DNA of 64,000 nucleotides from the NCBI GenBank assembly GCA_021819085.1, contig JAKASJ010000001.1, positions 1 through 64,000 on the forward strand. The letters are read 5' to 3'. The translations under genes and the position numbers were made by a program. Numbering within the stretch: position 1 is the first letter of the stretch; the number at the start of each line of letters is the position of its first letter. The notes beneath the pieces are model-generated. The model was not told the origin of the DNA and did not search any database. It saw only the letters and a list, made by a program, of their open reading frames with translations. This document shows, one piece after another, positions 5,208 through 27,050 of this stretch. This stretch comes from Pseudomonadota bacterium (GTDB lineage: Bacteria > Pseudomonadota > Gammaproteobacteria > Acidiferrobacterales > UBA6901).

Positions 5208-5957
5208 TCAGTCAAGATATTTCGCCTGCCAGGCGAGGTAAAGATTGTGGACGTAGTCGCAGTAGGTGCACTTGTCCGTGAACCTGGCCGGATCGATGGC
5301 ATCATACACATAGTAGTTCACGCGGTTGTTCGGAGCCGTGAGAAAATGCCAAAGCTTCTGCACGGGCGTCTCGTTCGGCTTCCATTCGAAGACATCCTGG
5401 GCCTCGTAATGGAGAAAAACCGGCAGGATCGGCACACCGGTGCGCAGAGAGATATCGAATGCGCCGTAGCGGAAAGACGAGAAGATGCGCTTGCCCTTGC
5501 AACCGCCTTCCGGATAGATGACGACGTTGCGCCCTTTGCGTAGTTGACCGACGATCTGTTCGGCGGCAGCCCGTCGCGATTCGCGCGATTCGCGCTTGAC
5601 GAACAAGGTACCTGCGGCACGGTTTATCCTCCCGGCGATCCACCAGTCGAGAACTTCGATCTTGGCCAGCGAAACCACATTGAACAGCGCCGGTACACCG
5701 ATGTCCTCGAATGCGGACGGATGATTGGCGATCAGAATGAAATGCTTCGGCAGAGGATCGCGATTTTTTTGATGCAGTCGCAGATCAACGCCAAGTGCGC
5801 GGACGAAGAACCGGCACCAAAGACGGAACAGAGTGAAGTACGCCGGTTGCGTGCGCTCTGCGCTCACGAACGATGCGACATAGAGTACGGCGGTGAATGC
5901 CGTAAGTTCCAGCCAGCACAGTCCGAGCCACACGATGCGCGCCAGATAACAGATCAA
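5208..5957 (-). CDS. 1-acylglycerol-3-phosphate acyltransferase-like protein (PlsC family)
   Basis: 249 residues with an N-terminal hydrophobic segment (about residues 6-30) that anchors it to the inner membrane. Motif III is clear (YPEGG) and motif IV is PILPV. Motif I reads NHPSAFED: the usual acidic residue four after the His is Glu, with Asp one position later, which departs from the canonical HX4D. The family acylates lysophosphatidate or similar lysolipids. It may be an acyltransferase with altered substrate, or a homolog with shifted catalytic geometry. It is a single transcription unit opposite a methyltransferase tail. Confidence 0.8.
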   Translation of the reverse strand: MICYLARIVWLGLCWLELTAFTAVLYVASFVSAERTQPAYFTLFRLWCRFFVRALGVDLRLHQKNRDPLPKHFILIANHPSAFEDIGVPALFNVVSLAKIEVLDWWIAGRINRAAGTLFVKRESRESRRAAAEQIVGQLRKGRNVVIYPEGGCKGKRIFSSFRYGAFDISLRTGVPILPVFLHYEAQDVFEWKPNETPVQKLWHFLTAPNNRVNYYVYDAIDPARFTDKCTYCDYVHNLYLAWQAKYLD

Positions 5958-6228
5958 GCTCCCTCCACGACCGCTGAAAGAATCGGCACGACAGATCCCC
6001 GTTCAGTAAAGGAGTATAGGCTGTCGCAGACGTGCGGATTTGCAGGCACTTCGCCCAGGGATCCGTAGCGACGGGACGTGGTCGGGGACAGGACATCGCG
6101 GCACGCAACGAGGCTGCGCAGAGTTGAAAGATTTCCGTACCTGCGGATGCATGAATCGCCTGCATGCCGGCCTTTCCCCGGACTTCAGTCACCGCATGCG
6201 CCCGATTCCACCTGCGGTGTCCGCTGAC

Positions 6229-7098
6229 TCAGGGTTTGTGTCCGGAGGCAAACAGGGTCTGAACATCGAGCCACAGTCCGTTTTCGCCAGCCAGGCGACT
6301 TACCTCCGCCAGGTGTTCGCTGCGGATCAGCTCGACCTGCCCGGGATTCAGCCGGTCAACGAGATCACGGAAGCTGCTGCCCATCACGACTTCCCACCAT
6401 TCGTGTGCATCGCGCAGGTGATAGCCCACCTGCTCTTCAGCGACCCGGCTGTCCGGAATACCCGCGTCGTGCAGCAGCTGCCGGCATCGACTGGACGCAG
6501 CCAGACTGTGGAGACCGGGAGCAAGCGGCTTGCCGGGTCCCGGCACACCCCCATCTTCGACGCGGTGCAGGAGCAATCCGGCCATGGGCTCAAACGCTCC
6601 CTCCCCGAAGGCGGAAAAGGCGATCGTACCGCCAGGTCTGAGCACGCGCACCCACCCGCGGATTGCGGCCTCCATGTCGGGCAACAGGTCAAGGGCATGC
6701 GAACAGAGCACCGCATCGAAATACCCGGCACGGAATTCCAGATGCCCGGCATCCATCAGGTGCAGATCTACGTTGGTGATACCGAACTGCACGATCTTGG
6801 CCTGCGTGCGATCAAGCATCTGTTCTGCCATATCGATCGCCATCACCCGCCCCGCCGGCCCAACGATCTGCGCTGCTGCAATCGCCACCGCACCGGTACC
6901 CGTGCCTGCATCCAGCACCTTTTGCCCCGGCTTTATGCCGGCATGCGTAATCAGCCGGTCGGCTGAAAAGGCGGAAAACCGCAGCGGCTCTTTGTCGTAG
7001 CCGGCCGCGGCGCGGTTGAACACTGCGCAGATGCGCCGGCTGGCGTGCTGGTCGTCGCGCATCGCATCGCGATCACCCGACGCATTGGTACCGATCAT
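6229..7098 (-). CDS. SAM-dependent class I methyltransferase
   Basis: The glycine-rich SAM-binding motif (VLDAGTGTGAVAIAAA) lies about 60 residues from the start, followed by the acidic end of strand 2 (VMAIDMAEQML) and post-motif LHLMDAGHLEF, giving a UbiE/Methyltransf_11-type fold of about 289 residues. The ATG at 7098 is preferred because GAGG stands eight bases before it; an ATG at 7176 in the same frame would add 26 low-complexity residues. The substrate is not evident; quinone or small-molecule C- or O-methylation are both possible. The gene stands alone. Confidence 0.8.
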   Translation of the reverse strand: MIGTNASGDRDAMRDDQHASRRICAVFNRAAAGYDKEPLRFSAFSADRLITHAGIKPGQKVLDAGTGTGAVAIAAAQIVGPAGRVMAIDMAEQMLDRTQAKIVQFGITNVDLHLMDAGHLEFRAGYFDAVLCSHALDLLPDMEAAIRGWVRVLRPGGTIAFSAFGEGAFEPMAGLLLHRVEDGGVPGPGKPLAPGLHSLAASSRCRQLLHDAGIPDSRVAEEQVGYHLRDAHEWWEVVMGSSFRDLVDRLNPGQVELIRSEHLAEVSRLAGENGLWLDVQTLFASGHKP

Positions 7099-8630: not shown

Positions 8631-9401
8631 ATGATGCAATCGAAACTGAGCCAGTGCTGCGGAATCCTTCTCATCGCGCTCACCCTGGGTACTGCCTATG
8701 CCGGCACGGTGAGTCAGGCCGAAGAGCGGCTGTTCAACGTACAGCTTCGCCTGGCTAAGAGCGGTGATCCCAATGGCGAGTTCTACGTGGGCGAAATGTA
8801 CGAACAGGGCCTCGGAACTCCGCGCAACCTCGAACTGGCCCACGCGTGGTACGAGAAATCGGCCGACAAGGGCAATATCGAAGCCAAGGACAAACTGGCG
8901 AACTGGGACGAGGTAGTGAAACACGCCGCGGATAGCCAGCAGCAGGTGCGGGCGGCGGCCCGGGCAAAGGCGCAAGCCGAGGCGCGCGCGAAGGCACAGG
9001 CATTAGCACAGGCCCGTGCACTTGCGCAGCAAAAAGCGCAGGCCCTTGCGCTCGCCAGAGAGCGTGCCGCTGCCGAGCGCGCCAGAAAGCGGGCGGCAGC
9101 CGAAGCGGCGGCAAAAAAACTGGAACACGAACGTGCCGAAGCGCTGGCACGCGCCCGCGAACATGCAGCGGCGTTGCGCGCCAGAAAAATCGCCGAGGAG
9201 AAGGCACAGGCCGAGGCCAGACAGCGTGCTACGGCGATTGCTGCCGCCAAGTCCCGCGAAGCTGCAGCGGCTGTCGCGCACGCCAAGAAGCCGGCGCCGG
9301 AAGTTTCATCGTCGACTCACAAGAATAAGCATCACGTCGTCCAGTTTTCCCCCAACCCCTGCAAGGGGGTTGCGGCCCAGTTTCTCTCGACCTGCCACTA
9401 G
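8631..9401 (+). CDS. Exported Sel1-repeat coiled-coil protein (paralog of the preceding gene)
   Basis: The chosen start (ATG 8631, with a second ATG at once after) gives a signal peptide of about 24 residues ending in GTAYA; starts further upstream would bury it. Sel1 units follow (GEFYVGEMYEQGLGT, AHAWYEKSADKGN), then ~130 residues of Ala/Arg/Lys/Glu-rich coiled coil, and a short tail with two Cys (NPCKGVAAQFLSTCH). It shares layout and several Sel1 positions with the gene at 7509 but lacks that protein's C-terminal domain. A GC hairpin begins five bases after the stop. Function unknown; probably a periplasmic structural or adaptor protein. Confidence 0.8.
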   Translation: MMQSKLSQCCGILLIALTLGTAYAGTVSQAEERLFNVQLRLAKSGDPNGEFYVGEMYEQGLGTPRNLELAHAWYEKSADKGNIEAKDKLANWDEVVKHAADSQQQVRAAARAKAQAEARAKAQALAQARALAQQKAQALALARERAAAERARKRAAAEAAAKKLEHERAEALARAREHAAALRARKIAEEKAQAEARQRATAIAAAKSREAAAAVAHAKKPAPEVSSSTHKNKHHVVQFSPNPCKGVAAQFLSTCH

Positions 9402-9405
9402 TAGC

Positions 9406-9428
9406 CGCCGGGCCCCATCGGCCCGGCG
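9406..9428 (+). terminator. GC-rich hairpin after the Sel1 gene
   Basis: Arms CGCCGGGCC and GGCCCGGCG pair perfectly around a five-base loop, immediately after the stop codon at 9401. No T-run follows, so it is a likely 3'-end hairpin rather than a textbook intrinsic terminator. Confidence 0.45.
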
Positions 9429-10009
9429 CAATCGCCAAGCCGGCAGGAAACAGCAGCGCACCCGGCACATCTGTTCCAGGTTCCAGACGATGGCGCGAGG
9501 TCACCCAGCCACCTTTGCCGGATCGGTGGGTCGCGGTACCTGATGACAGCCGCCGCGTCGGCCGCCAACGCAGCCACTTGCGCTCCGGACGGACCCGGGA
9601 ACGGGTGGGGTTATGCCTGGTCCTAAAGGTCCACAAATCTGCGCGGCCAGCCCGTACGTGGAGTGTCGTTGGGCATGGCAGGCAATCGCGGGACCGTATC
9701 GCCCGGCATCACGTCTTTATATTCGGGCGAAAGCAACGATGCGCAACGCGACATGGGCAACGAACCATCAAGGTGCCCGATGACGGCAGGGGCCGCCCAT
9801 GGACTCGCCGGTGTCGGCTCCTGCCCGTCGCGTCGCCGTTACCAGCCGGCAAGGGGCAGGAGTACCTCGGGGCCGGCCGGGTTGCCGATACCGTCCTTGA
9901 TCCGCTGATCCACCACCCGCGACACCCCACCGGAACCCGGGTATCGCGTGCTGCGCGATGCATTGCGCCTGGAACTACCCGCCCTGCCGCCGCACCGAAC
10001 ATAAACGCC

Positions 10010-10072
10010 AAACCACCCCTGTCTCCCGCCGCGCTACGCAGATCGCGTAGCGCAGAAGCGGTGGGGTGGTTT
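10010..10072. repeat. Long imperfect inverted repeat
   Basis: Outer arms AAACCACCCC (10010-10019) and GGGGTGGTTT (10063-10072) and inner arms GCGCTACGC (10031-10039) and GCGTAGCGC (10045-10053) pair around the loop AGATC; the segments between are unmatched. The element could fold on either strand. It could be a bidirectional terminator or a remnant of a small palindromic mobile element. Confidence 0.7.
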
Positions 10073-10181
10073 ACCGATAAATCCATAAACTGGTCTCGCT
10101 ACCGGGGCCAAATAGCGAAATCCGGGATGGCGGATCGACAGGAATCAGCACAGGCGGCCTCCGGCAAGCTGCGCGCTTCGG

Positions 10182-10211
10182 GAACGGCGTCCCCCGCCGG
10201 GGGTCCCGTTC
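10182..10211. repeat. Hairpin in non-coding DNA
   Basis: GAACGG (10182-10187) pairs with CCGTTC (10206-10211), and CCCCC (10191-10195) with GGGGG (10199-10203), with a small internal bulge. It lies about 140 bases beyond the stop of the substrate-binding protein gene on the minus strand. Confidence 0.55.
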
Positions 10212-10348
10212 GGTCATGACCAACCGGCCTTCACCCGCGGTGCTTAGCGGCGCTGCCGCACCTGCGGCCCGCGCCGGGGTGGCAGGCGGAGACTCTCAAC
10301 GCAAAGCCGCCCTGCGCCCGGACCCGTCGTCCGCGCCGGACCCGTCCG

Positions 10349-10789
10349 TCAGGGCACGATCAGCAGGACCTTGACTGTACGATCCAGCACCTTGCCATCA
10401 ACATAGCCGATGCCATCGGGGTGGCGGGCAACCCAGCGCTTGACGGCCTCGTTGCCACCCACCGCACGCGGCGGTTCGCCCCTGCCGGAAAAAATGAGCT
10501 TTGACCAATAGGACTTGAGTCTCACCGGACCCATTCCGACTACCTTTCGGTAGAATTCGGCCCGCACCGGACTGTGCCGATACTGATCTACTGCCACGGC
10601 CCTCCGGCCATCGGGAAATTCGTCAGACTTGCCGAGATAAATCATGGCAACATCGGCTGCGCTGATGCCCTCTAGCGGATTTGCGGGATTTCCGATGATC
10701 GCGAGCGCAGCATTGGCCGCGTTCATCATTCCCGAAAACCCGACGACGACGAGCACGAGGACAGTAAGCTTTTTCAGTAGTCTTGCCAT
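10349..10789 (-). CDS. Small PstS-like periplasmic substrate-binding protein
   Basis: About 146 residues starting at the internal ATG (MARLLKKLTVLVLVVV), which gives a clear signal peptide ending in NAANA and leaves a 13-base gap to the porin gene; a further upstream ATG would overlap the porin. The mature part (NPLEGISAADVAMIYLGK, then FYRKVVGM, WSKLIFSG, PDGIGYVDG) matches the pattern of short phosphate-ABC-transporter-type substrate-binding proteins, roughly one lobe of a full PstS. No ABC transporter genes are adjacent. It is co-directional with and downstream of the porin, so the pair probably works together at the outer membrane/periplasm. Ligand unknown. Confidence 0.75.
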   Translation of the reverse strand: MARLLKKLTVLVLVVVGFSGMMNAANAALAIIGNPANPLEGISAADVAMIYLGKSDEFPDGRRAVAVDQYRHSPVRAEFYRKVVGMGPVRLKSYWSKLIFSGRGEPPRAVGGNEAVKRWVARHPDGIGYVDGKVLDRTVKVLLIVP

Positions 10790-20777: not shown

Positions 20778-22883
20778 ATGATAAGAATACTGATCGCTGA
20801 CGACTCGCCAGACGACGCCGAGCAGTGCATCCAGGCGTTGCGCCAGGCAAAAGAACCCGTGCGGACCGGTCGCGTGATGGATTCCGCCGAACTCAGGGCG
20901 GCACTGTCGGGAGCCGAATGGGATGCCCTGCTCATCGAGCAGCGGATGGCCAACCTGAGCGTGCCGAAGGCGCTCGCGACACTCAGAGACCATGGTCTCG
21001 ACATCCCCGTGATCGTTGTAACCCGGAAGATCGCGGATCCGGAACTGCAGCAGGCTATGGTAGACGGCGCACGCGATGTGGTGATCAAGGGGCGTTGGGC
21101 ACGTTTGTTACCCGCGCTGCGTCGCGAACTGCTGGCGTCCGCCGATCGGCGGTCGTCGGCCAGGGTATCGGAAGAGATGCGCCGCCTCGAGGACCGGTAC
21201 CGCGTGATGATAGAGGGGTCGCGCGAGGCGGTATGCTACTGTCACGACGGCATGTACGTGGACGCTAATCCGGCCTACCTCGCGCTTGTGGGCTACCATG
21301 ACATCGGCGAACTGAAGGGCGTCCCGATTCTCAACCTGGTCGCCAACAAGGATCGGGCCCGGCTCAAATCCCAGCTCCGCAGTCCCGATGGATTCCGCGA
21401 TTCGCGCGAGTACACCGCCATCACGAGCGGCGGCGAGCAATTGCCTGTCGAAATTGCGGTATCCGCGGTAAATATCGAGGGCGAACCCTGCGTGCAAGTC
21501 GTGGTCACCGACATATCGAAACGCAAGGCGCTCGAAACCAGGCTGCAGTTCCTGCATCAGCGCGACGTCCTCACGGGGTTGTGCAACAGGCCGTACTTCC
21601 TGCAGGAACTGGGCAAGGCGATCGATCTCGTACGCGCCGACTACGGCTCATGCTTTCTGATCAGTCTGGAACTGCACCAGATAAGGGAAATCAACGAAGC
21701 CCTGGGGCATGAGGCGTGCGATCGCCTGCTGCTCATGCTGACCCGCCAGCTACTCGAGCGCGTGACCGGACAGCAGCTCATCGGCCGGGTAGGCGGAGGC
21801 CAGTTCGCAATCCTGCAGTGTGCAACTGCGCGCGAGTCGGCCGAGCAGCTCATGCAGGCACTGCGGCAGATGACCGCCGCCTTCCGGTTCAGCGAAGGAG
21901 CCGAGCGCTTCGATTTCCGATTTGGACTGAACCTGGTGGAGATCGACCGCTCGATCGAAGATCGTCAGCGGTTGCTGGCAGAGGCATTCCACCGTGACGT
22001 TCCGGCAGAACCGGTCCGGATTCCCGAGGCACCGCAGCACACCCCGGCCCCTGTCGTCGCTGAAGCCGCCACCGCGCAGATCGTGCAGCTGGTGACACTG
22101 AATCCCACCCTTCAGGAGGCGATGTCAAAGGAGCGCTATCAAATGCTGTTCCAGCCCCTGATCAATCTGCGCGGCGAGCCGCGCCAGTACTATGAGGCAT
22201 TCGTGTTTCTGGAAACCGGTGATGGGGCGCTGGTGCCGGCGGCGCAATTCATGCCGGCAGCCGAAAAAGCCGGTCTGGCAGCCAAAGTCGACCGCTGGGT
22301 CGTCCAGCGTGCGATCACCGCGCTGTCCAAGTGCGCCCGTCAGCAGGCGCACGCCGAGCTTTTCATTCCTCTGTCGCAGTCTGCTGCCACTGACCCCATG
22401 CTTCTGCCAGCCATCGCACAACACCTGAAGGCGATGCGTCTGAGCCCGGCGCGCCTTCACTTCCAGGTTGCGGGGCTGGCCGTGAAGCAACAGGGTGCCG
22501 CCATGCTTCACTTCCTGCATCAGGCAAGAAAAGCGGGTATTGGTGTAGTGCTGGACGACTACAACCCGAGGCTGTTTACCGCGCAGGAACTGGCAGGCAT
22601 TCCCGCCGATTTCATCAAGATCAATTGCGCGCTTCCGGAATGCGCGGAAGAGGCCGCGCTGCGGCACGCAGCGGACAACGCCAGGTCGTGCAGCAAGCAG
22701 AGCGTCGCAACCCGTGTGGAAGACATGGCTGTGTTCACGTTGCTGTGGAATTGCGGGCTCGACTACGTGCAGGGAGAAAGTCTCAGCCCGCCCGGCAATG
22801 ACATGGATTACAGCTTCGAAAGCGAGCAGACCCTGACCTCAGACCGGCCCCCGGCCAATCCGTGGCAACTGTCCGCAGGCTGA
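20778..22883 (+). CDS. fimX: FimX-like protein: pseudo-receiver, PAS, degenerate GGDEF and EAL domains
   Basis: 701 residues, near the length of Pseudomonas FimX. Residues ~1-118 are a response-regulator fold (IRILIADDSPDDAEQ) with Glu where the phosphorylated Asp belongs (DALLIEQRM). A PAS domain (~139-252) follows. The GGDEF core reads GGGQF (about residue 338) and cannot be a normal cyclase. The EAL start reads YEAF and the later DDFG-type loop DDYNPRL, so hydrolysis is unlikely. The end (DYVQG, then MDYSFESE) resembles FimX/FilP. FimX binds c-di-GMP through its dead EAL domain and, with PilZ and PilB, controls type IV pilus assembly at the pole. It stands alone here, but five PilZ genes lie in the same window. 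Confidence 0.8.
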   Translation: MIRILIADDSPDDAEQCIQALRQAKEPVRTGRVMDSAELRAALSGAEWDALLIEQRMANLSVPKALATLRDHGLDIPVIVVTRKIADPELQQAMVDGARDVVIKGRWARLLPALRRELLASADRRSSARVSEEMRRLEDRYRVMIEGSREAVCYCHDGMYVDANPAYLALVGYHDIGELKGVPILNLVANKDRARLKSQLRSPDGFRDSREYTAITSGGEQLPVEIAVSAVNIEGEPCVQVVVTDISKRKALETRLQFLHQRDVLTGLCNRPYFLQELGKAIDLVRADYGSCFLISLELHQIREINEALGHEACDRLLLMLTRQLLERVTGQQLIGRVGGGQFAILQCATARESAEQLMQALRQMTAAFRFSEGAERFDFRFGLNLVEIDRSIEDRQRLLAEAFHRDVPAEPVRIPEAPQHTPAPVVAEAATAQIVQLVTLNPTLQEAMSKERYQMLFQPLINLRGEPRQYYEAFVFLETGDGALVPAAQFMPAAEKAGLAAKVDRWVVQRAITALSKCARQQAHAELFIPLSQSAATDPMLLPAIAQHLKAMRLSPARLHFQVAGLAVKQQGAAMLHFLHQARKAGIGVVLDDYNPRLFTAQELAGIPADFIKINCALPECAEEAALRHAADNARSCSKQSVATRVEDMAVFTLLWNCGLDYVQGESLSPPGNDMDYSFESEQTLTSDRPPANPWQLSAG

Positions 22884-23580: not shown

Positions 23581-23948
23581 TATCCAGTCTCCGTCACCTG
23601 GCGTTCCCGGCAATAACGTTTAGGACCGCCGGCATCGACCGCGGGTTCCTTCCGCAGCGGCTGCCGCCGGCAATCACCGACCTGCATCATGCACCGTTAT
23701 CGCGCACGTCGTGCGGACCGGACCCTGCGCGGGGTTGGATCATGACCCATGCGGTCGAACCGGGCCTGCATCGCATTCCGCTTTCTCCTGACGATACCGG
23801 ATTGCTGTCCGGACCACCCCAGTTATGCCCAACACGACCGCGGGCAGTCCAGATGAAAATGACAATCTTGCGATTTTTTGTCACTTTTTCTTGACTTTTG
23901 TCGCCATCCTCCCCTAACCTTGCCGCGATCCGCATCCCTGGAGGTTCA
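23581..23948. other. Divergent region between GST and the MerR-ParA cassette
   Basis: No gene. It ends in a T-rich segment containing a good sigma-70-type promoter for the MerR-like gene. Confidence 0.5.
23891..23920 (+). promoter_or_regulatory. Likely promoter of the MerR-ParA cassette
   Basis: TTGACT at 23891 and TAACCT at 23915 are 18 bases apart, in a T-rich block within GC-rich DNA. Transcription would start near 23927, which rules out an ATG at 23898 as the start and supports the GTG at 23949. The slightly long spacer fits MerR-family regulated promoters, hinting at autoregulation (inference). Confidence 0.5.
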
Positions 23949-24491
23949 GTGCCCGGGACCGACTTGGGGTTCACAAGCAGACAAGTTAGCGCTGTCACCG
24001 GACTGACGCATCGCCAGCTGCATTACTGGCGCAAGACCAGTCTCGTCGTCCCATCCGGCCGCACAAGCGGCGGGCATGCGCGCTACAGCTTCACCGACCT
24101 CGTCGCCCTGCGGACCGCCAAGCAATTGCTCGATGCGGGCATATCTCTGCGACATATCCGCCGAAGCATCGTTTCCCTGCAACGCCTGCTTCCCACCCTT
24201 CAGCAACCGCTCACCGAGCTCTCGATCGTGGCAACCGGCGATGTGGTTCTCGTATTCCACGAGGGCGTTGCCTTTGAAGCGGTGACCGGCCAGGAGTGGA
24301 TTCTGCCGCTTGCGGCACTGCACCGGCAGCTGACACGGCTCGGATTTGAGGCCGACGCACGTTCGCCACAGCAGGGCGAACTGTTCACCGGTCCAGATCA
24401 CGCGGGACGAAAACGACGGCCGGGGCGGACGGCCGGGGACAGCGAGGGCAACGACCATACCCGGCCGGCGGGAAGCCGGCACAGCGGGTAG
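23949..24491 (+). CDS. MerR-like transcriptional regulator
   Basis: 180 residues from GTG at 23949, with GGAGG four bases before it. An N-terminal winged helix-turn-helix of MerR type (FTSRQVSAVTGLTHRQLHYW, then RYSFTDLVALRTAKQLLDAG) occupies residues ~8-80. The remainder (~85-150) is a small alpha/beta segment (VLVFHEGVAFEAVTGQEWILPL) with no obvious ligand-binding Cys, ending in a charged disordered tail. It is the first gene of the ParA-CBM48 cassette, 60 bases upstream of parA, and probably controls it. Its C-terminal part is not one of the metal- or drug-sensing types I recognise. Confidence 0.8.
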   Translation: MPGTDLGFTSRQVSAVTGLTHRQLHYWRKTSLVVPSGRTSGGHARYSFTDLVALRTAKQLLDAGISLRHIRRSIVSLQRLLPTLQQPLTELSIVATGDVVLVFHEGVAFEAVTGQEWILPLAALHRQLTRLGFEADARSPQQGELFTGPDHAGRKRRPGRTAGDSEGNDHTRPAGSRHSG

Positions 24492-24551: not shown

Positions 24552-25700
24552 ATGACTGTTATCGCGATTGCCAACCAGAAAGGGGGTTGCGGGAAGACGA
24601 CGACGGCGATCAATCTGGCAGCCTGCCTCGGCAAGAAGGGTCAGCGCGTACTGCTCGTCGACATGGATCCCCAGGGGCATGCCTGCCTCGGACTGGGGAT
24701 GCGCTGTGAAGAGATCCCGGGACTGTACGAGGTCTTCGCCGGCCAGGCATCGCTTGGCGAAGTGATCCTGCCCCAGGCCGTTGCAGGGGTAGACGTGGTT
24801 CCGGCCACCATTTCGCTCGCAGCCGCCGAACACAGCCTGCCGGACAACAGCGAGCGCGAGCGTCAGCTCACGATGCATCTGGCACGCTTCCGGCACCGTT
24901 ATGACTACGTCATCATCGACTGCCCGCCAACGCTCGGTTTCCTTTCGATCAACGCGTTGCGCGCTGCGGACCAGGTTCTGATTCCCATGGAACTGAGTCT
25001 GTTCGCAGTCGACGGTATCGAGCGCCTGCGCGAAACGATCTCGTTGCTGCGCGAAAAATACGGCCTCGACATCCCGATGCGCATCCTGCCAACCCTGGTG
25101 GACGACCGTACCCGCCTGTCGCGGAAACTTCTGCGCCAGATCTGGGAACGGTTTGCCGACGAAGTCACGCCGCTGATGGTGCACTACACGGTACGGCTGA
25201 AGGAAGCGGTCTGCGACGGCCGTCCGATCGTCGAATTCGATCCGGCCTGTGTCGCCACCATCGAGTACAACCGCCTCGCTGACGAAGTAATGAAGGGCCT
25301 TGCCGAGCGGCGACGTGAGGGACCGCGCCAGGCCGGGGAAGCCGCTGCCGCTCCGGCCAACGCCGCCCAGCCGCTGTGCACGCCGAAAACCCCATCCCGC
25401 TCGACAGGCCGCGGTCAGCCGCAGCGCACCGTGCTGCGTTTTCCAGGTCTTGCGGGGAAAAACATCCAGGTCGCGGGCGACTTCAATGACTGGGTGCCAG
25501 ATCAGGGCGTTGAAACAAAGATTGTGGGCAACAGCATAGAAAAGGTCCTGCTGGTCACCCCGGGATTGTACCAGTACCGTCTGGTCGTCGACGGCCGCTG
25601 GCAGGATGACCCTGTCAATCCTGCCCGCATCCCGAATCATGTCGGCGGCCACAACTCCCTTTTGCGCGTGCAGGAACCTGCCGAACTCATGGATCTGTGA
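24552..25700 (+). CDS. ParA-type ATPase fused to a glycogen-binding CBM48 domain
   Basis: 382 residues. Residues ~1-255 are a full ParA/Soj ATPase: deviant Walker A (QKGGCGKTT, residues 9-17) with signature Lys10, VLLVDMDPQG, YDYVIIDCPPTLGFL and the SLFAVDGIERL segment. A Pro/Ala/Arg-rich linker (~255-295) leads to a CBM48/AMPK-beta-type module (~298-375): FPGLAGKNIQVAGDFNDW, YQYRLVVDGRWQDDP and GGHNSLLRV, with the two sugar-stacking Trp positions present. ParA proteins bind DNA in an ATP-dependent way and move cargo; CBM48 binds alpha-glucan. The fusion suggests an ATPase that positions a glycogen-related cargo on the nucleoid (inference). No ParB gene is adjacent. Confidence 0.9.
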   Translation: MTVIAIANQKGGCGKTTTAINLAACLGKKGQRVLLVDMDPQGHACLGLGMRCEEIPGLYEVFAGQASLGEVILPQAVAGVDVVPATISLAAAEHSLPDNSERERQLTMHLARFRHRYDYVIIDCPPTLGFLSINALRAADQVLIPMELSLFAVDGIERLRETISLLREKYGLDIPMRILPTLVDDRTRLSRKLLRQIWERFADEVTPLMVHYTVRLKEAVCDGRPIVEFDPACVATIEYNRLADEVMKGLAERRREGPRQAGEAAAAPANAAQPLCTPKTPSRSTGRGQPQRTVLRFPGLAGKNIQVAGDFNDWVPDQGVETKIVGNSIEKVLLVTPGLYQYRLVVDGRWQDDPVNPARIPNHVGGHNSLLRVQEPAELMDL

Positions 25701-25726
25701 TGGCTATATCCCGCGGAGGCAAGGTC

Positions 25727-26494
25727 ATGGGCACGCGCGAGCGGCTCGCCGGCATCAGCCAGTATTTTCTGAGCGAACCGGACACGGGCGCAGCCGCGAA
25801 AAGCACCGCGCCGCACGAGACATGGCTGCTTCCGGTGCTGGTGGACTCCGAACTCACACAGGTCTTTGTCTATGCTCTGGCACGCGCCCTGCACGCACGT
25901 CGCCTCACGGCGATTGTGCTGCACGTCGATTCCAGCCTGCGCAGCACCGACCCGCGCTCTTCGTCGCTGCGCAGCCGCCTGGATTCCCCGGCGGTCCTGC
26001 GCCACCATCTGAAGGAGGAGCTCGGCGAATCCAAGCTGCCGCCGCGCGTCTGCCTGATACCGGTTACGGATTCCGGGAATCCGCACCTGCGCGAATACGA
26101 TCGGGCGCTGATCGCAGTCGGTGCGTCGCAGCTGGCACTGAAGCGCTCCTATCTCAACATCAAGCGGCTCGCCGGAGATGGAGTGCCCACCCGCATCGGC
26201 GCCATCGTTGTCGGCGCGGTGAGCGACGAAGATGCCCGTCGTTATTCCGACCGGCTGGCCGCCGCTGCGATGCGCTTCCTTGGGCGTACCGTTACCCGCA
26301 TCGGTGGCGTCGTCACTCCGGAATCCACCACAGATCCGGCCGATAACCTCGGCGAGGTCTCAGGGAATTCGCTCACCGCCATCGTCGATGCGCTGATCAG
26401 GGAGGGGTTCCTCGGCAGCAATCCGGATTCCGGTGCGGCTCCGGCCAGCGCTGCCGAGACTACAAAAAGCCCGCCGCCGGCGCGGAACCGCTGA
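25727..26494 (+). CDS. Unknown protein resembling a ParA/MinD ATPase without Walker A
   Basis: About 255 residues from the ATG at 25727, preceded by GGAGG at 7 bases; an ATG at 25700 overlapping the parA stop is the alternative. I do not recognise the family by name. The order of segments is MinD/FlhG-like: an N-terminal strand (WLLPVLVD), a helix and strand (LTAIVLHVDSSL), a central RALIAVGASQLALKRSYLNIKRL helix, then RIGAIVVGAVSDEDARRYSDRLAAAAMRFLG, which strongly resembles the late region of MinD/FlhG. There is no KGGxGKT loop, so it probably does not hydrolyse ATP. As the neighbour of a true ParA it may be a regulatory or heterodimer partner. Confidence 0.7.
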   Translation: MGTRERLAGISQYFLSEPDTGAAAKSTAPHETWLLPVLVDSELTQVFVYALARALHARRLTAIVLHVDSSLRSTDPRSSSLRSRLDSPAVLRHHLKEELGESKLPPRVCLIPVTDSGNPHLREYDRALIAVGASQLALKRSYLNIKRLAGDGVPTRIGAIVVGAVSDEDARRYSDRLAAAAMRFLGRTVTRIGGVVTPESTTDPADNLGEVSGNSLTAIVDALIREGFLGSNPDSGAAPASAAETTKSPPPARNR

Positions 26495-26495
26495 C

Positions 26496-27050
26496 ATGGC
26501 TTTGCACATCCGCCCCGAGCCGATGCCCTCAAAGCCCGCCCTGCGGGCGCTCATCGTCGCATCCCTGGATGCGTTCCTCGGTCCGACGACCGTCTTGGAC
26601 CCCGAATTGGCATGCACCGGGCATCCGGTCCTGGCGCTCGATGCGGCACACCGGCTGACACTCGTCAGCTTCGATCCCGGGGACGGCATTCAGGCACTCC
26701 TTTCCGGACTTTCCGCGTGGCATGAAACGCGCGCCGGAAACCCGTGGCTGAAGCGGCTTTATCCGGAATTGCACCAGCTCGATGGATCGCCGGCGCCGCG
26801 CCTCATCGTCCTGATGCCGGAGCTGCCGCCCGGGATCAGCCTGATCGCGTCGGATGAATGTGGCCTGGAGATCTTCTGCTTTCGCGTCCTGGCGGTGGAC
26901 GGACAGCCTGCGCTTCTGGTCGAGCCCGCGACGGAATCTCCCCCTGCGCCTGAAGTCGGCGCGGCGCCCCGCCACTCGCAACCAGTCCCGAACGTCGATT
27001 CGGAACTGACCGAGGAGGAAACCGCCTTCCTGGAGTCTATCCGGCCATGA
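26496..27050 (+). CDS. Unknown protein, last gene of the ParA-CBM48 cassette
   Basis: 184 residues. The start (ATG 26496) follows the preceding stop as TGACATG, so it is translationally coupled to the pseudo-ParA gene. Residues ~1-140 are an alpha/beta domain (HPVLALDAAHRLTLVSFD, APRLIVLMPELPPG, LEIFCFRVLAVDGQPALLVEP); the layout recalls a PD-(D/E)XK-like core, but no catalytic set is evident and I do not assign it. A Pro-rich stretch then joins a short acidic helix (DSELTEEETAFLESIRP) that could be a docking tail. The context makes it a candidate cargo adaptor or regulator of the ParA system. Confidence 0.65.
   Translation: MALHIRPEPMPSKPALRALIVASLDAFLGPTTVLDPELACTGHPVLALDAAHRLTLVSFDPGDGIQALLSGLSAWHETRAGNPWLKRLYPELHQLDGSPAPRLIVLMPELPPGISLIASDECGLEIFCFRVLAVDGQPALLVEPATESPPAPEVGAAPRHSQPVPNVDSELTEEETAFLESIRP

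Follow-up and report, generated by a model that had tools for sequence, protein, structure and literature searches.

ParA/MinD ATPases give chromosomes, plasmids, carboxysomes, chemoreceptors and flagella their place in the cell. Many of them are known as orphans, owing to the great diversity of their partners, according to the available part of one published study (PMC10241942). The question of the partner arises in a particular form in the window, by which is meant the whole stretch of 64,000 nucleotides analysed here: next to a true ParA, with the P-loop KGGCGKT, lies the gene of a protein that reads like MinD or FlhG and has no KGGxGKT motif. An earlier note had pointed to this pair and proposed that the protein without the P-loop, here called X, either forms a heterodimer with the ATPase or tunes its cycle, a role that ParB-type partners, which it held to be absent, normally play. 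What kind of protein is X, and what might it do for its neighbor?

Protein X and its lost P-loop

The operon runs on the + strand in the order MerR regulator, ParA-CBM48, X and Y, with the following features.

23898..24491, + strand: MerR-family HTH regulator, first gene of the operon (PF13411, E 1.2e-16; start codon uncertain)
24552..25700, + strand: ParA ATPase (KGGCGKT) fused to a C-terminal AMPK-type CBM48, called ParA-CBM48 (AAA_31 1e-53, AMPK1_CBM 4.4e-9)
about 25428-25679, + strand: CBM48 domain of ParA-CBM48, residues 293-376 (AMPK1_CBM, PF16561, above cut-off)
25700..26494, + strand: X, predicted FlhG-type pseudo-ATPase, alternative start 25727 (profile-profile comparison, AlphaFold2 fold)
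25742..25774, + strand: conserved N-terminal peptide of X, RLAGISQYFLS, proposed to bind and activate ParA (comparison of partner proteins)
25835..25861, + strand: site of the missing P-loop of X, a VDSELTQVF region replacing GKGGVGKT (hhalign alignment)
26093..26314, limits approximate, + strand: best-kept FlhG-like part of X, RALIAVGAS...AYxxIKxL...RFLG...G (profile searches)
26496..27050, + strand: Y, predicted PD-(D/E)XK nuclease fold without catalytic residues (AlphaFold2; NucS/EndoMS Z 10.4)

The open reading frame of X is real, as homologues occupy the same locus elsewhere, and it is present in one copy in its own genome. Two start codons are possible. The ATG at 25700 overlaps the stop codon of ParA-CBM48, and the ATG at 25727 has a GGAGG 7 bases upstream; in two X orthologues of the same genus no start codon matches 25727, so that these begin at the equivalent of 25700, which is probably the start of X as well. 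Y starts one base past the end of X. Searches of Pfam and NCBIfam gave no match to X, and no relatives of X were found among viral contigs. Upstream of the operon, a receiver-PAS-GGDEF-EAL protein is encoded at 20778-22883 of the window.

Using hhalign, X was compared with 21 FlhG proteins, giving a probability of 97.8% and an E-value of 9.5e-13 over 180 columns that include the P-loop region, where DSELTQVF of X is aligned onto GGVGKT of FlhG. The corresponding comparison with the ParA-CBM48 family gave a probability of only 1%, and for this reason X was rejected as a recent duplicate of ParA. A PDB profile search with X found FleN (5j1j, E 4.7e-8) and FlhG (4rz2, E 1.8e-5). The AlphaFold2 model of X has a mean pLDDT of 75.7 and a pTM of 0.69, with core blocks above 90 pLDDT and the first ~36 residues below 60. 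This model matches FlhG 4rz3 with a Z of 17.7 and an rmsd of 3.4 over 186 residues, and FlhG/FleN structures are the seven best matches in the structure comparison (Z 15.0-17.7) and the ten best in the Foldseek search. The likeness to MinD/FlhG read earlier from the letters is borne out by these values. A fold unrelated to SIMIBI ATPases, which the earlier note had named as its refutation, is not what the model shows, its best matches being FlhG/FleN.

The absence of the motif, also noticed earlier, extends to the counterparts of X in other genomes. Neither the Walker A pattern [AG]xxxxGK[ST] nor the deviant Walker A KGGxGK[ST], the hallmark of FlhG/FleN, occurs in any of 39 partner proteins, that is, proteins homologous or positionally equivalent to X. 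This set excludes L093, which lies on the same contig as L018, and L087, where the open reading frame after ParA-CBM48 has no similarity to X; L009, L010, L012 and L013 are repeats of the X genes in L001, L005, L006 and L007, and L011 is the X of L046. In an Omnitrophota relative of X (L111), the surroundings of the lost P-loop are well kept, and the Pfam family CbiA matches from just after it with an E-value of 3.7e-4, which is below the curated cut-off. A profile made from 8 X rows and run over 369 class genomes also matches FlhG-like genes, at model positions of about 130-206, and such genes are matched elsewhere in the phylum as well. On re-reading 45 loci from the X profile searches, SGKGGVG[KR][ST] was present in open frame at 38, and the 7 loci without it include one true X locus, L026. 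Sequence and model comparisons together confirm X as an FlhG/FleN-type SIMIBI domain without a P-loop, predicted to be a catalytically dead paralogue of the FlhG branch.

X is like FlhG/FleN (YlxH, MinD-like ATPase) in its predicted fold, in the order of its elements and in a C-terminal half with the AYxxIK helix and the RFL...G region. It is unlike FlhG in having no P-loop, in being paired with ParA-CBM48 and not with flagellar genes, and at the N-terminus, where RLxxISxxFLS contrasts with the DQAQRLR of FlhG in L194 and L195. The N-terminal DQAxxLR of FlhG is the activator helix for FlhF, and this helix was not found in X.

ParA-CBM48, protein Y and the conserved operon

The ParA-CBM48 alignment shows no variation in the P-loop or at most ParA positions. 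The closest solved structures to the CBM48 domain are the glycogen-binding domains of AMPK beta (AMPK beta-2, E 1.9e-12). Residues W29, R58, W65 and N83 of the domain are invariant in 14 of 14 gammaproteobacterial rows, and in a wider set of 39, assessed by patterns, the first Trp is kept in 39, the second Trp in 37, the Asn in 33 and the basic residue in 35; the two Trp, the Asn and the basic residue are taken here to form the carbohydrate face. Compared with AMPK beta, the key W/W/N is kept and K is replaced by R, whereas the fusion to a ParA ATPase sets the domain apart. The folds in this operon are known and the proposed mode of action is of a known class; a search of the open-access literature, which leaves out most subscription journals, gave no description of a CBM48-ParA fusion or of the X/ParA-CBM48 system.

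Y (P0003) also has no match in Pfam or NCBIfam. Its AlphaFold2 model, with a pLDDT of 82.4, matches the nuclease domain of NucS/EndoMS (2vld) with a Z of 10.4 and an rmsd of 2.4 over 105 residues, and a Foldseek search gave a probability of 1.0 with an E-value of 4.8e-3, the nearest folds being DNA repair nucleases. The predicted PD-(D/E)XK fold is thus shared with the catalytic domain of NucS/EndoMS, but Y stands alone, is acidic (pI 4.68) and has no ExK signature: in 15 Y rows the catalytic D...ExK is absent, with an SFD-like motif at the ExK strand. The C-terminal helix LTEEExxFLxx of Y is conserved. PDB profile matches to designed PPR/solenoid proteins were judged spurious. Y, which the earlier note does not mention, belongs to the X/ParA-CBM48 operon unit, and a natural X-Y fusion in G026 suggests that the two proteins work together.

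X is present in 8 of 145 relatives, its own genome counted, and in 15 of 369 class genomes after FlhG-only matches were removed and the neighbors were used to judge. Eighteen gammaproteobacterial loci (L039-L056) were read, and ParA-CBM48 adjoins X in 14 of the 16 that could be assessed; L042 and L048 end at the contig edge, and as G026 (L008/L042) and G234 (L048) lie on short contigs their upstream genes are not assessable. At L045 the CBM alone is left, and L055 keeps X and Y with no peptide, MerR, ParA or CBM at the locus. MerR occurs in 15 of the 18 loci (one partial) and in L088-L094, and none was found at the loci of other phyla that were searched. Y likewise occurs in 15 of the 18, once fused to X (L042). 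In L044, L048 and L049, which lack Y, its place is taken by a response-regulator GGDEF-EAL gene convergent with X.

Across the 369 class genomes, X and ParA-CBM48 are both present in 12, X alone in 3, ParA-CBM48 alone in 3 and neither in 351, a co-occurrence with a Fisher p of 2e-17 that is uncorrected for kinship and takes the partly matched gene of G291 as ParA-CBM48. X occurs without a fused ParA-CBM48 in G387 and in G136, the latter having X with its peptide and a lone CBM. ParA-CBM48 without an adjacent X was also found (three gammaproteobacterial genomes, L087), and G233 and G339 carry a near relative of its ParA part with no CBM in frame and no X. The comparison of these loci indicates that the MerR/ParA-CBM48/X/Y operon is old and specific.

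The N-terminal peptide and its likeness to ParB

The N-terminal peptide of X, GTRERLAGISQYFLS, combines basic with spaced hydrophobic residues. Its loose core pattern is found in 36 of the 39 partner proteins, the misses being L014 and L021, which are one residue off, and L055, which has no tail and no ParA at the locus. A strict pattern, sought near the start of open reading frames of at least 120 residues in six frames of 97 loci, matches the partner genes and the DUF4912 protein of L111/L184 only. In Omnitrophota and Rokubacteria the peptide reads LG[KR]GLEDxSxLFLS, close to the ParA-activating peptide of ParB. The Omnitrophota form is LGKGLEDISYLFLS, or KKLGKGLEDISYLFLS in its longer version (3 of 3: L111, L190, L191), and the Rokubacteria form is LGRGLEDVSHLFLS, or PLGRGLEDVSHLFLS when extended; the ParB of the own genome starts MNMTTKKPRLGRGLDALLGG, with the peptide RLGRGLDALLG. 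Judged by eye, only the Omnitrophota, Rokubacteria and Auribacter peptides reproduce the spacing of ParB exactly (L, basic +2, L +4, hydrophobic +7). In most gammaproteobacteria the arginine of the peptide comes one place later than in ParB, and most Planctomycetota peptides have no basic residue at the ParB-equivalent place.

Known activators carry a common short peptide at or near the N-terminus in which positive charge is essential, as stated in the accessible part of one source (PMC13170346). For M. xanthus ParB, the available portion of another reports that binding to a hydrophobic cleft of ParA requires L11, L15, L18 and I19, and that R13 drives the stimulation of ParA (PMC12462528). The M. 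xanthus ParA sites were mapped onto ParA-CBM48 via the printed alignment with 8ray_B, an entry taken to be M. xanthus ParA on the strength of ten matching residue letters. The cleft for the ParB peptide (L150/L152/L155/L187, M. xanthus numbering) is hydrophobic in 14 of 14 ParA-CBM48 rows and Y81/E82 are kept in 12 of 14, whereas V116, D110 and E117 are not conserved in these rows, so the ParB-peptide site is kept in part only. At residue 43 of ParA-CBM48 (window 24552-25700), His stands for the catalytic-motif Asn64 of M. xanthus ParA, giving DPQGH in 14 of 14 rows.

X is like the partners in ParABS and in the ParB/MinE/McdB/PomX systems in that it adjoins a ParA and has a short N-terminal amphipathic peptide, and in some phyla the X-type partners come near to a match with the LG[KR]GL peptide of ParB. 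Unlike ParB, the body of the partner consists of a dead FlhG domain and a dead PD-(D/E)XK protein, and no ParB CTPase or HTH domain was found in X or Y with Pfam and NCBIfam; unlike the ParA of ParABS, ParA-CBM48 itself bears a glycogen-binding domain. By analogy with these systems, X is probably a ParB-type activating partner of ParA-CBM48. The earlier statement that ParB-type partners are absent is then probably wrong, because X itself looks like one: its peptide is of the activator kind, and its Omnitrophota and Rokubacteria relatives lie near the peptide of the genome's own ParB.

A scan of named genomes by CBM alignment kept 80 loci, chosen by the CBM and not by X. A ParA-CBM48 fusion at E <1e-60 is present in 41 of them, with Planctomycetota, Omnitrophota, Rokubacteria, Auribacter, Zixibacteria and Desulfobacterota among the records. 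In 19 of these 41 the next open reading frame has the X-type N-terminal peptide (RLxxISxxFLS), and in 22 no motif-bearing frame was seen directly downstream. The bodies behind the peptide differ. In L111, L129 and others it is a pseudo-FlhG, in L106 (Rokubacteria) a Y domain follows the peptide directly, with the X body absent, and in L149 a pseudo-FlhG is joined to a Y-like C-terminus (E 8e-5), as is weakly the case in L107. A Desulfobacterota protein (L120, 1614-2966) that adjoins ParA-CBM48 combines the peptide with a MerR-like HTH, a long middle and RodZ_C.

Some further loci are recorded here as observations. Omnitrophota L096, L112, L115, L132, L136 and L143 have ParA-CBM48 without X directly downstream; a short Lys-rich protein follows ParA-CBM48 in L112, L115, L132, L136 and L143, several of these with a THYFPHVQAAVIKLKG-type stretch. 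L089, labelled Nitrospirota, has a complete gamma-type operon including MerR, from horizontal transfer or mis-binning.

Glycogen as a possible cargo

A GH57 branching enzyme is encoded downstream in 3 of 3 Omnitrophota operons (L111, L190, L191), the gene in L190 and L191 being recognized by its near-identical N-terminus. In L111 a laccase-like gene comes next in the operon, followed by those of a Lys-rich DUF4912 protein (E 1.5e-37) and of the GH57 branching enzyme (PF03065 5.9e-39, PF09210 4.5e-40). This DUF4912 protein (8894-10429), upstream of the GH57 gene, holds a second copy of a LGKGLEDISHLFLS-type peptide. In L190, a Lys-rich protein at the equivalent place (5384-6916) has a peptide of this type one residue off, and none was seen in the first 140 residues of the L191 protein at that place. 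Near the other named ParA-CBM48 loci no relatives of GH57 or DUF4912 turned up, bar a weak GH57 match in L112. Among the gammaproteobacterial loci read, with neighbors partly searched against families, no glycogen genes were seen beside the operon. A search of the open-access literature gave nothing relevant on a link between glycogen and ParA, and for DUF4912 it gave one paper, on cotton callus.

The distribution of GlgB was compared in two sets of genomes. It is present in 18 of 18 system-bearing class genomes vs 192 of 351 others, against a background of 210 of 369 genomes in which GlgB is common in the class, and this co-occurrence may follow genome size or kinship, neither of which is controlled in the counts. 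In a 78-genome comparison, GlgB is found in 18 of 19 system-bearing genomes (own genome included) vs 42 of 60, the one miss being a 71%-complete assembly; with genomes of at least 1.9 Mb, the association in this set has p = 0.056.

The reading favored here, with modest confidence, is that X is an FlhG-derived pseudo-ATPase that serves ParA-CBM48 as an adaptor and as the activator of its ATPase, probably within a system for positioning alpha-glucan. On the nucleoid, ParA-CBM48 with ATP would form dimers, and the CBM48 domain would bind alpha-glucan (glycogen). X would dock on the ParA dimer by its flexible N-terminal tail, with basic residues and the amphipathic helix RLxxISxxFLS, and this tail would stimulate hydrolysis, like the peptides of ParB, MinE and PomX, and the dead FlhG-fold body of X would serve as a protein-protein platform holding Y. 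Through X and Y together, the cycling of ParA would be tied to a cargo, for which glycogen or the machinery that makes it is the likeliest candidate, and the store would in this way be distributed over the nucleoid or divided among the daughter cells. What the analysis shows of this is the homology, the loss of the active sites, the conserved gene order, the common peptide, the type of the CBM and the linkage to a branching enzyme in Omnitrophota; from these are inferred the contact of peptide and ParA, the activation of the ATPase, the X-Y complex, the glycogen cargo and its positioning. A wider proposal, of a pan-phylum ParA system that positions or partitions glycogen by means of an AMPK-type CBM on the motor, a ParB-like peptide on a dead FlhG domain and a dead nuclease-fold partner, is offered tentatively, as possible and somewhat short of probable. 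The main facts against are the genomes with a lone ParA-CBM48 or a lone X, the lack of the basic residue in most Planctomycetota peptides and the gammaproteobacterial operons with no glycogen genes seen beside them.

Of the two roles proposed for X in the earlier note, tuning of the ATPase is the best reading and the heterodimer has become less likely. In a mixed SIMIBI dimer, X would join ParA-CBM48 (or the cell's FlhG) through the ATP-sandwich face and so inhibit or tune the ATPase, which would suit a protein that keeps the entire SIMIBI fold, lies beside a live ParA and co-occurs with it. However, the signature lysine of the P-loop is part of the SIMIBI dimer face, and because X has lost the P-loop with this lysine, as have 39 of 39 partner proteins, such a dimer is less likely. 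The conservation of X also speaks against it: it is highest in the N-terminal peptide and in the C-terminal half that resembles FlhG, and the short-X gammaproteobacterial genomes are without much of the N-terminal half; X further occurs without a fused ParA-CBM48 in the two genomes named above. A mixed dimer is considered unlikely.

FleN regulates FleQ, and the descent of X from the FleN/FlhG branch would also fit a transcriptional role, in which X and Y act on MerR or an enhancer-binding activator and ParA-CBM48 senses glycogen and moves nothing. This agrees with the MerR gene at the head of the operon in gammaproteobacteria, with the MerR-like HTH behind the same peptide in the Desulfobacterota protein and with the response-regulator GGDEF-EAL genes beside X in L044, L048 and L049, but MerR was not found at the loci of other phyla, the common peptide resembles ParA activators, and the P-loop and most ParA positions of ParA-CBM48 are invariant; it is regarded as improbable. 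Some ParA partners are HTH proteins, and together with the DNA repair nucleases as the nearest folds of Y this would allow a DNA-partition module, where a DNA site is marked by MerR or by Y, which would bind DNA and not cut it, X connects that site with ParA, and CBM48 is just a protein-protein E-set domain. Given an acidic Y that has lost the nuclease signature, and a CBM whose carbohydrate-face residues are kept in all 14 gammaproteobacterial rows and in 33 to 39 of the 39 of the wider set, this module is very unlikely.

If X is the activating adaptor of ParA-CBM48, the locus would supply an entire ParA subfamily with a concrete partner, and it would offer as a mechanism a dead MinD/FlhG paralogue turned partner scaffold. 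Glycogen would be a testable cargo that is absent from the ParA cargoes in the available part of PMC10241942. The seven Halothiobacillus ParA/MinD systems were considered as counterparts of X and rejected, none of them being linked to glycogen or a CBM in that same part of the source (PMC10241942). The analysis also gives domain-level readings for X and Y, both without family matches, and a possible role for DUF4912; if true, it would describe a bacterial system, as yet undescribed, that positions starch-like energy stores.

In L175 (G012), a ParA-CBM48 gene without X lies directly before a gene that, read by eye, is hexose-6-phosphate mutarotase-like.
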